From the NCBI GenBank assembly GCA_017436345.1, contig JAFSDH010000002.1:124001-188000 (forward strand): DNA of 64,000 nucleotides. Reading direction: 5' to 3'. A model generated the notes under the pieces. That model was not told the DNA's origin. It did no database searches and saw only the letters and a list, made by a program, of their open reading frames with translations. Positions 9,105 through 15,472 of the stretch are shown here, piece after piece. The DNA comes from Bacilli bacterium. GTDB lineage: Bacteria; Bacillota_I; Bacilli_A; RF39; UBA660. Position numbers and translations under genes: made by a program. The number at the start of each line of letters is the position of its first letter. Position 1 is the stretch's first letter.

Positions 9105-9209
9105 TGCATAAGATAAACCTTATGCAGATGAACACTTAACGATCATATAATGTTAAGTGTATTCAACCAAAACCCCCTGAAGAGACGTCGAGAGACGTCT
9201 CATTTTTGT
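9105..9209 (+). ncRNA. Candidate small structured RNA, plus strand, about 105 nt
   Basis: Downstream of the promoter are three perfect stem-loops: TGCATAAG/CTTATGCA (9105-9126), ACACTTAAC/GTTAAGTGT (9132-9160) and GAGACGTC-GAGA-GACGTCTC (9182-9201). The last is followed by ATTTTTGTTT and looks like a terminator. A single-stranded linker between the second and third hairpins contains CCCCCTGAAG (9173-9182), which is exactly complementary to the terminator loop of the minus-strand RNA at 6795-6896. No credible ORF is present. The class is not recognised. Confidence 0.6.
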
Positions 9210-9287
9210 TTGTAGATAAGAAAAAAACAACACAAACCAACTCCTTCAGGGGATTTGGGTGGTAAAAAACGTTTAATTTATATCTCT

Positions 9288-9353: not shown

Positions 9354-9395
9354 AAAGTGCAAAAGACGATTTCTAAAGTGCAAAAATTGCACTTT
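9354..9395. promoter_or_regulatory. Triple half-site operator O1 upstream of the fic promoter
   Basis: AAAGTGCAA at 9354-9362 is followed exactly 21 bp later by AAAGTGCAA (9375-9383), a 3-bp spacer and the inverted copy TTGCACTTT (9387-9395). The palindrome ends 4 bp before the fic -35. The same arrangement occurs inside fic at 10290-10332. This is the expected geometry for a dimeric winged-helix repressor. Confidence 0.7.
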
Positions 9396-9399
9396 GAAA

Positions 9400-9428
9400 T
9401 TGTTTTTTTTATAAAAAAATGGTATAAT
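9400..9428 (+). promoter_or_regulatory. Promoter of the fic operon
   Basis: TTGTTT (9400-9405), a 17-bp spacer and TATAAT (9423-9428). It lies directly downstream of operator O1, with the start codon 24 bases after the -10. Confidence 0.65.
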
Positions 9429-9451
9429 ATTAATAGTTGGGAGGATTATTT

Positions 9452-10510
9452 ATGAATAAAAAAGAAGATTGGAGTATTGAATTATCAGAATATATTAAAC
9501 AAGGTGAACCAACGCGTGTTGAAAAAACTAAAACATGGGGAACTGCAATTGGTTTACAAGAAGTAGATGGATTAAAACCATCTGAGTATTTAATAGAGAC
9601 TGCAAAAGAACATATCGAAGGTAATATCGATTTACCAGAAGTTGAACATAGAATAAATGAATATTATAAAGTTTTAGGTAAGCGTAAAACAGAAGAAGTA
9701 GAAAATAGTGAAGAAGCAGATAAAGTTGCGGTAAGAATTACAGAAATCCTAAGTGAAAAATCTTTTAACTTTAATCCGACAGAATTAGTGATGATTCATC
9801 AAAGATTATTTTCAGGCGTATATAAACACGCAGGAAAAATTAGAGATTATGATTTTATAAAAGCAGAATGGGTTTTAAATGGTGATACAGTTACATATTC
9901 TCAATACGAAACAATTAAACCAGCTTTACAATACGATTTTGAAAAAGAAAAAGAATTTTCATATAAAGATCTACCAATAGAAGAATCAATAAATCATCTA
10001 TGTCGTTTTACTTCTGATATATGGCAAGTTCATCCTTTTTGTGAAGGGAATACAAGAACTACTGCAGTATTTATTATTAAATATTTAAGAACTTTTGGAT
10101 TTAATATAAATGACGATGTTTTTGCAGAACATTCTTGGTATTTTAGAAATGCACTAGTAAGAGCTAATTATAAAAAAATTGAAAAAAATATTTTTGAAGA
10201 TATATCTTTCTTAGAAAAATTCTTTTATAATCTTTTACAAAATACTAACTTTGATTTAAAAAATAGATATATGCATGTTGATTATAACCAAAGTGCAAAT
10301 GATACAAATTTAAAGTGCAATGATTGCACTTTAGATGAACAAGTTATTATAAATATTATTAAAAGTAATCCAACAATAAGACAAGAAGAAATAGCTAATA
10401 TGATTAATAAGTCAGTAAGAACTGTAAAAACAAGAATGATTGCAATGCAAGAAAAAGGACTTATTGAAAGAAAAAATGGAAAGCGTAATGGAGAATGGAT
10501 AGTTTTATAA
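9452..10510 (+). CDS. Fic-domain protein with C-terminal winged helix (probable AMPylating and DNA-binding regulator)
   Basis: Fic enzymes transfer AMP or a related group from a nucleotide to a protein hydroxyl. The 352-residue protein has a mixed N-terminal region, the Fic core (about residues 90-240) and the signature HPFCEGNTRTT at about 194. This matches HxFx(D/E)GNxR, retaining the catalytic His and the phosphate-binding Gly-Asn and Arg. A flap-like NGDTVTYSQYE lies upstream. A polar linker (about 275-295) leads to a winged-helix domain (IRQEEIANMINKSVRTVKTR), typical of Fic proteins that act as regulators. ATG 9452 follows GGGAGGA; an upstream TTG at 9437 overlaps that site. Repeated AAAGTGCAA operators lie in its promoter and within the linker codons, suggesting autoregulation. 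Two large genes follow without a terminator. Confidence 0.9.
   Translation: MNKKEDWSIELSEYIKQGEPTRVEKTKTWGTAIGLQEVDGLKPSEYLIETAKEHIEGNIDLPEVEHRINEYYKVLGKRKTEEVENSEEADKVAVRITEILSEKSFNFNPTELVMIHQRLFSGVYKHAGKIRDYDFIKAEWVLNGDTVTYSQYETIKPALQYDFEKEKEFSYKDLPIEESINHLCRFTSDIWQVHPFCEGNTRTTAVFIIKYLRTFGFNINDDVFAEHSWYFRNALVRANYKKIEKNIFEDISFLEKFFYNLLQNTNFDLKNRYMHVDYNQSANDTNLKCNDCTLDEQVIINIIKSNPTIRQEEIANMINKSVRTVKTRMIAMQEKGLIERKNGKRNGEWIVL
10290..10332. promoter_or_regulatory. Triple half-site operator O2 inside the fic coding region
   Basis: AAAGTGCAA at 10290-10298, again at 10312-10320, then 3 bp (TGA) and the inverted TTGCACTTT at 10324-10332. The layout is the same as O1, except that the direct repeats are 22 rather than 21 bp apart. 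It lies in the codons for the linker between the Fic and winged-helix domains, about 937 bp from O1. Confidence 0.65.
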
Positions 10511-10566: not shown

Positions 10567-13500
10567 ATGAAATTGATTAAAAGTACAAATATTGAAGAAT
10601 ATGTAAAGAAAAATAAAAAAGAAGCTGAAAATGAAATTCCATATATTTTGAAAAAACTTATTAATAATACTGTAAAAGAGATAAAAGGGATTGACATTCC
10701 AAGTGGAGACAATACAATTCAAACAGGGTTTGATGGTATAGTGAGTTTTAGAGGAACTAACAAATATTTAGGAGATAAAACGGCAAATATAGAAATTGGC
10801 ACGAATGCTGATTATATAAAAAAAGCTAATGACGATATAAAAAAAAGAGAACCAAAAAATAATGAAAATTTTATTTTTATAACTCCCTACAGATGGAATA
10901 ATAGAAAAATATCGAAGGATTCATGGATAAGTTCTAAAAAAAATAAATATAAATGGAATGACATAAAAATAATAGATGCTTCTGTTTTAGAAGATTGGTT
11001 AGAAGAAGATTTTTTAACTACAAAATATTTTTTAGAGAAAATGGGAATATCAACAAAGAAAGTATATTCTATTGGTGAAAAAGAAAAAGAGTTTATTAAG
11101 AAAACAAAACGTGGGATTAGTCTTGAATTTTTCGATTACGATGATAAAGAGTATGAAAAAATATTATCCGAGCTAAAAAAAGAACACTATAATATTACAG
11201 CTCCGACTAGAGAAGAAGGATTATTAGTAACGTTATATTATTTGAGAAAAATAGGGAAAGAAAATGATACTCTAATTATAGAAGATGAACTTGCTTGGAA
11301 AAATATTGTTAGTAATAATTTAGTAAAAAATAGCATACTTATTCCAAATTTCTACCATGAAGAGGGGTTAGAGACTTTAGATGAAAATGTAACTTTATTC
11401 TTGCATGATAATGATGAATTAATCAATGATTCAGATTATATAATTAAACAACGTACAATCAGCAATCTAAACAAATGTTTAGAACTTTATTATAAGAAAG
11501 AAAGAAATCAAACTGATTACGAAGCTATTAATTTAATAATTAATAAAAGTTTAGGCAAATATGTTCCCCTAAAAAGAGAACTATTCAAAGAAGTGATTAA
11601 GCCTAAATGGTACAATGAAAGTAATATAAAACTATATCTATATTTATTTTTTGTTAATAATTTTAAAACTTATGATATGAAATTATTCGAAGATCTTGGA
11701 TTAAATATAGAGGAATTGAAAGAAAAACTAAAAAAGTTAACAAAAGAAAAAGATCCATTCATTGTTTATTATAAATATTGGGATCAGTACAGGGTTGTAA
11801 ATATCTATAATGCAATCGATTGCTTAGGTTCATTTATTGATGAGTCGGATATTGAAAAACTATGTAATATTGCTCGAAAAGTGTTATTTTATCTAGAACC
11901 GAAATATTTACCTGAAAATATTGATAAAAAGTATTATATTGAGAATAGTGCAATTAGAGAATATAGTGATGTAGTTAAGGAGGGTATATTAAGAAGTTTA
12001 ATAATTACAAAATTATATTTGGAAACAGAAAATAAGAATAATTTAGTACAAAAACTAGAAAATCTAATCGACGAATATTATAATTCTATAGAAAATGAGG
12101 GACAATTTTTAAGTCTAGCTAATATAGCGTCTAAATTAGTTGAATTTGACTACGAAAAATATCTAAAAAAAATTCAAAATTCAGTCACAAATAAAGAATT
12201 TGAAAAAATGTTTGACTTAAGCAATAAAGATACTATTTTTTCATCTAATGAATATTGCAATATACTTTGGGGAATTGAAAAGGCAATAAATAAAAGGGAT
12301 TATATTTGTGATGCTATTGAAACATTAGCGTTATTGTCAGAAATGAAGAATACAGAATACAAAAATATGGCAAACAAGCCAATTGAAACTCTAAGAGTAG
12401 TGTTTTTAGGATGGGATAACTTAACATGCTTAGATATAAGAGAAAAAGTAAAACTATTAGAAATGTTAATAAAGAAGCATAATGAATTGGGAAAAGAACT
12501 TATGAAAAAAATTCTTCCAAATAATAGTTGTACTTGGTCCCCATTGCAAAAACCTGAATTTGATAAATATGATGAGGTGAATAAGATAAAGTATGTTAGT
12601 GAACAAAAAGAATATTTTGAAAAATACTACATGCTTTACTTGAATAATTATGTTAATAAATTAGATGATTTAATTTGCATATATGACGAATTGTATTTTG
12701 TAGATTTTAATTGTTTTGAAGATATAAAAACCAAAACTTTAAGTTTAATAGAACATAGTTCTGATAAGCAAAAACTTAACTTCAAAGAAAAAATTTCCGA
12801 AAGATTAAGAGGATATGAAAAATTTAATAATCAAGCATGGAATTTAACTGAAAAACAATTTGACTTTTTAACTGAAATAAAAAATAAATTAATATATGAT
12901 AATTCAATTTATGATTACTTGTATTTGTATCAATATAATCATTTGAAGGATGAAGAAGATGAACCAAAAAGAAAAGAAGCAATGGAAATACTAAAAAACA
13001 ATATAGAAAACGAAAATATATTGTTTGAGAATTGTAATGATAAAAGAAGGCTTATAAGTGATATTTACAAGTATTGTCATAATGGTCAATGTAATATAAA
13101 GTTCTTAAGAAAATTATTTATAAATTATAGTGAATGCGTTGAATTTTATTTAAGAATGATTTATTTGAATGAAACGGTAGAAAATATCATAAAAATATAT
13201 AATAATCATGAGTTAGAAGAAATACCAATAGAAAATAAAATTTTTATTCTATCAAATATGGGGTATAACGAATTTATTTATAATGAAATAAAAGGAAGAT
13301 CCGAAGAAGCAACATACTGGAAAAAATTAAATATATTTAACGGAGAAAAAAATGACTTTGTATACGATTCATGTTTTAAATATGGTAATTACGAGATATG
13401 CTTAGATATGATATATGAACAAAGTGGTAAATATGAAGAAAAGTGTAAATTACTAGAAAAAATGCAAGAAATAGATGGATATAAAAACTTTTTAGATGAA

Positions 13501-14166
13501 TATAGAATAAACAAAATATTTGAGAGTTTTTACAATTCTAATGATGTTAGTAATTATGAAAGGCTAGCTAAATTGGAGATTTATTATAGTCCAATTTTAG
13601 ATAATAAAACATATTTCTTATCAAAAGAAGCAAGTAAATATCCAAGTATAGTAGCAGAAATGGCTGAAATAATTTATAAAGATGAAGAAGGAAATTTTTC
13701 GGAGTTTAAAAATAAAGAGAAAATTGTTTCAAATTGTTATACTAAATTAAGAGAATTGAATATTGATTTTGAAAATGCAAATGCACTAGAATGGTGCGAA
13801 AAATTTATAAAAGCTATGATAGAAAAGAAAAGAAGTCATATTATGTATAATGTACTAGGTAGATTGTTAGCCAAATCTGGAACTGATAAAGATGATAAAA
13901 TGTATCCAACTAAAAGCGTAAGGATGATTATTGAATATTATAAGTCAAAAGAATTAGCTCATTCTTTTGCCATCGAACGTTATAACTCGCGAGGCGTTCA
14001 TTTTATTGGTGTGGGTGAAGAAGAATTATCATTATATAAACAACATTTGGAATGGTCTAATAAAATGAAAATCGAATATCCAGAAACATCTAAAATATTA
14101 AAGAATATCGCTGAAAATTATAGACAAGAAGCAAAGATGTTGAGAGATGAAGCGAACTATGTATGA
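10567..14166 (+). CDS. Large (1199 aa) putative defence protein with nuclease-like N-terminal domain
   Basis: The N-terminal ~150 residues contain SGDNTIQTGFDGIV, then ANIEIGTNADYIKKANDD, then FIFITPYRWNN...W and IIDASVLEDWLEE. From memory this resembles a domain at the start of large bacterial proteins written 'GWDG...WE(I/F)GT...KA..DY..R...FVTPRRW', probably a PD-(D/E)XK-type nuclease fold. That assignment is from pattern, not a search. It is followed by a region (ITAPTREEGLLVTLYYLRK) that sits where a NACHT/STAND NTPase would begin but has no Walker A. The rest is alpha-helical and repeat-like. The ribosome binding site GAAAGGAGG precedes ATG. It overlaps the kinase gene by 20 bases and lies 56 bases after fic, implying an operon. 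A sensor-effector role in immunity is inference. Confidence 0.6.
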   Translation: MKLIKSTNIEEYVKKNKKEAENEIPYILKKLINNTVKEIKGIDIPSGDNTIQTGFDGIVSFRGTNKYLGDKTANIEIGTNADYIKKANDDIKKREPKNNENFIFITPYRWNNRKISKDSWISSKKNKYKWNDIKIIDASVLEDWLEEDFLTTKYFLEKMGISTKKVYSIGEKEKEFIKKTKRGISLEFFDYDDKEYEKILSELKKEHYNITAPTREEGLLVTLYYLRKIGKENDTLIIEDELAWKNIVSNNLVKNSILIPNFYHEEGLETLDENVTLFLHDNDELINDSDYIIKQRTISNLNKCLELYYKKERNQTDYEAINLIINKSLGKYVPLKRELFKEVIKPKWYNESNIKLYLYLFFVNNFKTYDMKLFEDLGLNIEELKEKLKKLTKEKDPFIVYYKYWDQYRVVNIYNAIDCLGSFIDESDIEKLCNIARKVLFYLEPKYLPENIDKKYYIENSAIREYSDVVKEGILRSLIITKLYLETENKNNLVQKLENLIDEYYNSIENEGQFLSLANIASKLVEFDYEKYLKKIQNSVTNKEFEKMFDLSNKDTIFSSNEYCNILWGIEKAINKRDYICDAIETLALLSEMKNTEYKNMANKPIETLRVVFLGWDNLTCLDIREKVKLLEMLIKKHNELGKELMKKILPNNSCTWSPLQKPEFDKYDEVNKIKYVSEQKEYFEKYYMLYLNNYVNKLDDLICIYDELYFVDFNCFEDIKTKTLSLIEHSSDKQKLNFKEKISERLRGYEKFNNQAWNLTEKQFDFLTEIKNKLIYDNSIYDYLYLYQYNHLKDEEDEPKRKEAMEILKNNIENENILFENCNDKRRLISDIYKYCHNGQCNIKFLRKLFINYSECVEFYLRMIYLNETVENIIKIYNNHELEEIPIENKIFILSNMGYNEFIYNEIKGRSEEATYWKKLNIFNGEKNDFVYDSCFKYGNYEICLDMIYEQSGKYEEKCKLLEKMQEIDGYKNFLDEYRINKIFESFYNSNDVSNYERLAKLEIYYSPILDNKTYFLSKEASKYPSIVAEMAEIIYKDEEGNFSEFKNKEKIVSNCYTKLRELNIDFENANALEWCEKFIKAMIEKKRSHIMYNVLGRLLAKSGTDKDDKMYPTKSVRMIIEYYKSKELAHSFAIERYNSRGVHFIGVGEEELSLYKQHLEWSNKMKIEYPETSKILKNIAENYRQEAKMLRDEANYV

Positions 14167-15472
14167 AGCTTTTGTTGGAAGAGAAATCGAATTAGATAAT
14201 GAAATTATAACAATAACAGAATATATTACTAAAGGTGGTAATAGTATAGTATTTGGCTGTAAGTATTTAGAGAGGGATTACGTTATTAAATTTTTTAAAG
14301 GTAAGAATAAAGGTAGATATGATAGATTTAAATCAGAAGTTGATAAAATCAATTATTTAAATAATAATATTCAAAACTACTCGCCGCAAGTAATCAAAAA
14401 AAATTTTCCAAAGTATAATTATCGTCTATTTAATACCACACAGGTAGAAAATTTACCGTTTTATGTTATGGAACGCGGAGAGATGTATGAGTATTCTAAT
14501 TTAAATTTTGAACAAAAATTAAATGATATAATTGAAATCTGTAATAGTTTAAATAGTATGCATAGCATAAATTGTATCCATAGAGATATTAAACCAGAAA
14601 ATATAGTAAGGTATAATGGAAAGTTAACATTTATTGATTATGGAACTGCACATGTTCCTGGAATAGATACGATTAATAATAAAGAACAAATGGGGAGTAG
14701 AGGGACAATTGCTCCTGAAATGGTTGATCGAATAAATGGACAAAATGATAATGAAAATAAATATTCAGATATTTATTCTTTTGGAAAAACTATGTGGATA
14801 TTACTTACGAATGATCGCGCCGCTTATAAATTTACAACATATGATTCAAATAATATTAACAGTAAAATAAGATTGAATGATGTAAATAAAGGTATAGTTA
14901 TGGCTTTAGAGAGAATCATAGCAAGAGCTACTAGAGAAAATTATTTAGAAAGAATAGAACTTAATAAAATGCTTGAATTATTGATTCTTATAAGGGATGG
15001 TTTGTTAAAGAATGATAGGAATTGTAATATAATGAAATTTAAGTGTTTGTTAGAGGATACAGTTGATATTTATTACGATGCTACATTAATTGATAATGAA
15101 AATAAAATAATAGAATATATAAAGCAAATAAAAGATTTAGGATGTATTTTATCTTTAAAAGTAGATAAAAGAAATTTATGCGATGAAGTAGAACTAGAAT
15201 CATTTGATATTGAGTATGAACCATCAGGGAAATATTATTATTTTATATTAAATGCTAAAAAATTTATTTTTAAAATTAAAGAAATAGTAATTAACAAAGA
15301 TAATATATGTATCAAATGTAATGAAATGTCCGAACCAATATTAACGGAAAATAGCACTTTTTTTAGAGACATAGATCCTTTTAGCAAAAAATCAATATTA
15401 TCTAATCCAATAGATGACATCGCTGAGAATGTGTATTTAGAATGCGATGTATGTCTAAATGTTGTTGAATAA
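14147..15472 (+). CDS. Ser/Thr protein kinase with unknown C-terminal domain
   Basis: The 441-residue protein has a eukaryotic-like kinase domain in its first ~280 residues. It shows a Gly-rich loop (TKGGNSIVFG), VIK lysine (YVIKFFK), catalytic loop HRDIKPEN (His at about 145), metal-binding DYG in place of DFG (FIDYGTA), and GSRGTIAPEM for the APE motif, so it should be active. The C-terminal ~150 residues (mixed alpha/beta, with CIKCNE and CDVCLN) are not recognised. There is no membrane helix, unlike PASTA kinases of cell-wall control. The start overlaps the preceding gene by 20 bases, implying translational coupling. It probably signals within the Fic/nuclease-like operon. An alternative start at 14159 is possible. 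Confidence 0.85.
   Translation: MKRTMYEAFVGREIELDNEIITITEYITKGGNSIVFGCKYLERDYVIKFFKGKNKGRYDRFKSEVDKINYLNNNIQNYSPQVIKKNFPKYNYRLFNTTQVENLPFYVMERGEMYEYSNLNFEQKLNDIIEICNSLNSMHSINCIHRDIKPENIVRYNGKLTFIDYGTAHVPGIDTINNKEQMGSRGTIAPEMVDRINGQNDNENKYSDIYSFGKTMWILLTNDRAAYKFTTYDSNNINSKIRLNDVNKGIVMALERIIARATRENYLERIELNKMLELLILIRDGLLKNDRNCNIMKFKCLLEDTVDIYYDATLIDNENKIIEYIKQIKDLGCILSLKVDKRNLCDEVELESFDIEYEPSGKYYYFILNAKKFIFKIKEIVINKDNICIKCNEMSEPILTENSTFFRDIDPFSKKSILSNPIDDIAENVYLECDVCLNVVE

Follow-up and report, generated by a model that had tools for sequence, protein, structure and literature searches.

The window, by which the whole 64-kb stretch of DNA analysed is meant, contains a fic gene with two arrays of the half-site AAAGTGCAA, one upstream of the gene and the other inside it, and the features at the locus are located as follows.

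9354-9362, + strand: upstream distal half-site AAAGTGCAA, exact, with the next half-site following as a direct repeat at an offset of 21 bp
9375-9395 (9375-9383 on the + strand, 9387-9395 on the - strand): upstream 9-3-9 palindrome AAAGTGCAA-AAA-TTGCACTTT, exact, predicted main promoter operator
9400-9428, + strand: predicted fic promoter, with TTGTTT, a 17-bp spacer and the extended -10 TGGTATAAT, read from sequence
9452-10510, + strand: fic, 352 aa, Fic domain and C-terminal winged helix, by PF02661 and HTH_24 profile matches
10290-10332 (10290-10298 and 10312-10320 on the + strand, 10324-10332 on the - strand): predicted linker-coded operator of direct, direct and inverted half-sites, exact
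10415-10453, + strand: recognition helix, residues 322-334, from the AlphaFold2 model, with R323 and T327 as putative base-reading residues

The product of fic was placed in the Fic family by its PF02661 match (40.5 bits, cut-off 24), and the HTH_24 match (30.4 bits, cut-off 21.9) lies C-terminal to the Fic domain; the protein also hits PDC-S72, a phage-defence candidate in PADLOC (E 5e-121). The AlphaFold2 model (40 homologues) has a mean pLDDT of 88, the linker residues 281-288 fall under 50 and are predicted to be disordered, and within the recognition helix of the model R323 and T327 are separated by roughly one turn. The full catalytic motif HxFx(D/E)GNxRxxR is absent, as the protein reads HPFCEGNTRTTA and its last arginine is replaced by Ala205 (window 10064-10066), a residue invariant across 40 aligned homologues; membership of the Fic family stands on the profile match, and AMP transfer is not claimed. 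The N-terminus, which may resemble VbhA, reads VDGLKPS with an invariant Asp39 (window 9566-9568) where the inhibitory glutamate would be expected, and no Pfam antitoxin match was found in the protein; with Ala205 and Asp39, the usual inhibitory lock seems altered on each of its two sides. On the 3' side of fic (window 10567-15472), a 1199-aa gene that matches nothing in Pfam or PADLOC follows at close spacing, as does a Ser/Thr kinase-like gene resembling PADLOC PD-T4-6/mad6 (E about 1e-17), possibly as a defence operon. Inverted repeats (CCCCTGAAG...CTTCAGGGG around GAGACGTCGAGAGACGTCTC) without an Rfam match were also observed in the intergenic recG-fic region (window 9170-9262).

A search of the whole window returned six exact AAAGTGCAA half-sites and no further exact match, and these are the six that the earlier note had read as a triple half-site operator at 9354/9375/9387 and again at 10290/10312/10324, with the geometry it described. 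Both arrays follow the same order of direct repeat, direct repeat, 3-bp gap and inverted repeat; the direct repeats are offset by 21 bp in the upstream array and 22 bp in the inner array, and the inverted pair forms a 9-3-9 palindrome in both. The inner array encodes residues 280-294 (QSANDTNLKCNDCTL), covering the linker plus one residue at the start of the winged-helix domain, so that its placement between the Fic and winged-helix domains is borne out. The genome (1,695,968 bp) carries 24 exact copies, of which only the six at fic are grouped closely. The palindrome, searched with up to 2 mismatches, has one other copy in its own genome, at 2 mismatches. At the background rate about 0.01 copies of AAAGTGCAA are expected in the 979-bp interval, and given the peptide and the codon usage of the window all three inner half-sites would be spelled with a probability of about 6e-5, a low value due mostly to the rarity of TGC (11% of the Cys codons in the window). 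The argument that such pairing could not easily be accidental thus stands, with no other close pair in the 1.7-Mb genome, and a chance origin of the paired arrays is excluded.

The upstream palindrome ends 4 bp before the -35-like TTGTTT (9400-9405), in agreement with the view that the array abuts the fic -35, and the TATAAT of the extended -10 lies at 9423-9428; the generic consensus scan did not include this predicted promoter in its list. A -10-like hexamer was observed 26-28 bp 3' of the upstream palindrome in 18 of the 19 loci with the upstream form, 11 of which were found through the DNA pattern, a route that selects for the palindrome and not for promoter distance. In most relatives the distal half-site lies at -20 to -22 (or -13, -32). 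The inner palindromes differ, since TATAAT with up to 1 mismatch at +26 to +28 was found for 2 of 34 inner palindromes versus 16 of 21 upstream ones, and the promoter scan of the inner site gave no score above shuffled sequences; the inner site therefore lies within the transcribed region without a promoter of its own, as a roadblock operator does. Bound ahead of the -35, Fic would repress fic, and this autorepression is preferred by analogy with CccR, which is an autorepressor acting through an inverted repeat. That the site instead makes Fic an autoactivator is unlikely: a palindrome 5' of the -35 at a fixed distance, with the operator centre near -50 and 26-28 bp to the -10 in the 18 loci, would suit an activator, but the known Fic-HTH protein represses itself, the consensus -10 makes activation seem unneeded, and in one relative (L128) the operator lies 6 bp ahead of TATAAT.

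Conservation of the upstream site was assessed in nine unselected winged-helix relatives of the same class. The sequence AAAGTGCAA-NNN-TTGCACTTT is exact upstream of fic in seven of them (L123-L129) with diverged flanks, while the other two show rearranged half-sites with one mismatch (L130) and a near variant (L132). No such upstream site was found at 18 loci of Fic paralogues without a winged helix, some of these loci being partial. Across 30 genomes hardly any copy of the palindrome lies outside its own locus, indicating that there is no regulon, and the regulon reading was rejected on this ground. An open-gap palindrome scan of 84,980 genomes, in which the gap length was left free, returned 122 sites, 84 of them with a 3-nt gap, and many lie ahead of or within fic genes. 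Several orphan triple operators without a nearby fic were also observed (L074:6639, L120:2543, L121:6677; L062:247, L111:6317), located before an AAA_21 ATPase gene or next to terminators, and these may be either targets in trans or remnants.

The two arrays are seldom found together. Of the 44 KS-class fic genes that could be scored, part of which were found through the exact pattern, 27 carry the inner palindrome only, 14 the upstream palindrome only and 3 both; the fic gene of the window belongs to the rare group with both, together with L056, L125 (inner copy eroded) and L020 (one mismatch). In other families the inner site is the sole site. These counts bear on the earlier suggestion of a repression loop of about 0.9 kb, in which a dimer of dimers on both arrays would close a loop of about 0.94 kb. 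The window's fic has the two arrays intact, with like order and geometry, and the palindromes are spaced by 937 bp in L056 (same as here) and 939 bp in L020, but an equal spacing follows from conserved gene length; since the loop requires both sites and most relatives lack one of them, the loop claim did not hold up well and such a structure is quite improbable.

A different account of the inner array is that it arrived with the winged-helix cassette and is now a functionless fossil in this genome, its role having passed to the upstream operator. The motif is not absent from orthologous loci as far as the upstream site is concerned, but the inner site is eroded or lost in most of the close orthologues that retain the upstream one (L123-L129), so that the inner site may be a relic in this genome as well; L125, for instance, keeps the peptide KCKNCTL with two synonymous changes at the inner site. 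Against this, all 27 inner bases are intact in the window although its fic is 83% identical at the nucleotide level to the nearest orthologue, and the rare TGC codons are retained. The fossil account is therefore a doubtful, though real, possibility, and a second operator is preferred.

Differential half-sites were observed when the linkers of unselected homologues (the L055 family and the L012 order) were compared, in which other half-sites occur with the same 9-3-9 geometry. Among Fic homologues, AAAGTGCCA pairs with the recognition helix S-x-R-[ST]-I-K-R, AAAGT[AC]TCA pairs with S-x-[AS]-T-[IV]-K-R, and AAAGTGCAA pairs with S-x-R-T-[IV]-K-[TSN]. At the position of residue 323, arginine goes with G6C7 of the half-site and alanine or serine with NT, and at the position of residue 327, arginine goes with C8 and other residues with A8, with agreement at both positions in all 41 scored genes. 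At least 12 changes of operator type are needed on the Fic-domain tree, and the independent switches on that tree (5 and 3 pairs) are all concordant, being too few for a sign test. In new loci with repeated half-sites fetched later, the prediction was right for position 8 in 9 of 9 genes and for positions 6-7 in 8 of 9, the exception being L385, where the rule is broken at position 7. It is inferred that R323 reads half-site positions 6-7 and T327 position 8.

The same comparison bears on the alternative that the inner match is a protein-level feature, in which KCxxCTL would be a conserved peptide, a metal site for example, and its likeness to the upstream DNA would be incidental. Fic homologues always read the inner palindrome in one and the same frame, but the sequence also occurs upstream, where the DNA is non-coding, linker variants (KCQNGTL, KSQFDTL) change peptide and DNA together with the helix, half-sites are read in another frame in L005, 11-bp repeats run through three frames, and the linker is predicted to be disordered. 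This leaves the peptide explanation barely credible; a zinc-site reading of KCxxCTL was rejected. It is scarcely more probable that the sites are the target of a different DNA-binding protein or act in RNA, as a hairpin or terminator. Terminator-like scores were obtained for the palindromes, and the same palindrome lies ahead of XRE-nucleotidyltransferase genes in three genomes (L081:622, L042:7432, L077:777), but the site and the winged helix occur together, no match in Rfam reached its gathering score, and the T-run is not conserved; DNA binding is favoured over a terminator because direct-repeat half-sites are present and covary as well as the inverted ones do. In two of the XRE proteins a helix SLRSYK or PLRTFK was seen that resembles SLRTVK of the winged helix, and a convergent recognition of one half-site by the XRE domain and the winged helix is possible.

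Regulators of the AlbA/HATPase_c_4 type also carry linker repeats before their winged helices. In all 22 AlbA genes with a clear repeat, the tandem repeat that is strongest in the gene directly precedes the winged helix, with periods of 12, 21 or 24 bp, and in L246, L253 and L334 the linker repeat is also present upstream of the start codon. In one AlbA gene (L353) the winged helix is tandemly duplicated and the repeat array stands before the first copy. An 8-mer upstream-match test on the AlbA genes was weak (10 observed versus 2.3 expected) because short AT-rich repeats bring noise, and the tandem-run and helix-similarity tests were relied on instead. Otherwise unrelated proteins share repeats where their helices are alike, such as AAAGTGCCA in Fic SERTIKR and AlbA SERKVKR; AAAGTATCA in Fic SIATIKR and AlbA SIAAIKR; ATGTCGG in four AlbA proteins with the TKRTIER helix; and AGTTCGG in Treponema Fic SRAVEKQ and AlbA TRAVEKQ. 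The share of repeat-sharing pairs climbs with helix identity from about 0.3% to 20-50%. The repeats are moreover independent of reading frame, as the half-site AAAGTGCAA of the window is read in another frame in the linker of the AlbA-type gene L005, ACAAGTACC of a third helix class is translated as TST, EQVP or DKY, and in L228 and L235 a single linker carries ACAAGTAC repeats in all three frames, one every 11 bp. This suggests that linker repeats are DNA-level features under selection on DNA.

Evidence of exchange comes from L197 and L188, which are about 90-96% identical along the Fic domain, about 50-58% identical over about 120 bp covering the operator and the recognition helix, and about 80-96% identical beyond; the replaced segment of L197 carries AAAGTGCCA with TIKR, and by this identity pattern L197 is a mosaic with one swap of operator and reader. 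In the remnants L362 and L371 the Fic domain is gone and operator and reader are kept, and the small frames examined for the hypothesis that stand-alone winged-helix genes with promoter operators are the unfused ancestor are mostly remnants. Two short winged-helix frames with ambiguous start codons (L373 and L379, with SKTVRTVQR) have AGTGACA repeats around TATAAT, and these may represent readers not fused to another domain, each with its operator at the promoter. A phylum-level search for further relatives of L192 gained few.

The winged helix most probably binds the AAAGTGCAA-type sites of its own gene, as the earlier note had supposed; this is strongly supported by the footprint in orthologues, the absence of the site where the domain is lacking, the lack of another good site in the genome and the half-sites that track the helix. 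The Fic winged helix would bind the 9-3-9 palindrome as a dimer and would also contact the half-site lying two turns off, and the inner array would be a second operator written in the codons of the disordered linker. Its occupancy may impede elongation through fic and the downstream genes, or may add local occupancy; with no promoter behind the inner site, an elongation block is the likeliest effect. This is the least certain step of the mechanism and the roadblock is plausible, but many bound proteins block elongation poorly (PMC10310618). Judged on sequence comparison, it is likely that this fic has an autoregulatory upstream operator with a linker-coded second operator, and that linker-coded operators are general to this class of winged helix, both Fic-fused and AlbA/HATPase-fused. 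The operator adjoins the segment coding for its reader, so that address and reader would change together when the segment is swapped, and we lean, somewhat less firmly, towards a mobile cassette of reader plus address in many winged-helix regulators, with a linker operator in any frame beside the recognition helix. If so, recombination in the linker would swap specificity and operator in one step, and the cassette would be a self-contained autoregulated module whose natural recognition code can be read. For many Fic and AlbA regulators that are still uncharacterised, specificity could then be deduced from their own genes, paired protein-DNA data towards a winged-helix recognition code would be at hand, and regulators would have a route to switch specificity while keeping autoregulation. 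Repeated linker peptides such as NVTENVTE, STPTSTPT and KCxxCTL are also a warning, as they would be DNA features and not protein motifs.

Among known systems, CccR of Yersinia pseudotuberculosis joins Fic to a C-terminal HTH and represses its own promoter via an inverted repeat (PMC9755527). It has in common with the Fic of the window the C-terminal DNA-binding domain and an inverted-repeat operator in its own promoter, which for the window is assigned by sequence. The CccR operator, however, is AGATAATCAT-N26-ATGATAATCT, two 10-bp boxes 26 bp apart, whereas that of the window is 9-3-9 with a gap of 3 bp and extra half-sites; no linker operator is reported for CccR, whereas the window's Fic has a predicted one; and CccR has a full HxFx(D/E)GNGRxxR-type motif with R203, whereas the last arginine is Ala205 in the window. 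The closest solved Fic structures by sequence are those of VbhT (3zcb, 3shg, 3zc7), and unlike VbhT/VbhA and other Fic toxin-antitoxin modules the window's Fic stands as one protein that includes a winged helix, and no gene for a separate antitoxin was seen for this fic. The AlbA/HATPase_c_4 regulators (PF13749) share related C-terminal winged helices, linker-coded repeats and sometimes the same half-site, and differ in their other N-terminal domains and in having direct tandem repeats more often than palindromes. A search of the open literature turned up no account of linker-coded self-operators. Autoregulation and intragenic operators are already known, and a linker-coded, frame-independent operator co-inherited with the recognition helix would seem to be new; linker-coded operators are best seen as a variant of autoregulation, though the cassette principle has a real chance of amounting to more. 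Intragenic operators and roadblocks include lacZ O2, galE and PurR at purB, and fic shares with these a repressor site, predicted in its case, inside a transcribed gene; it differs from them in that the gene is the regulator's own, and the site is written in linker codons beside its reader and changes with the recognition helix.
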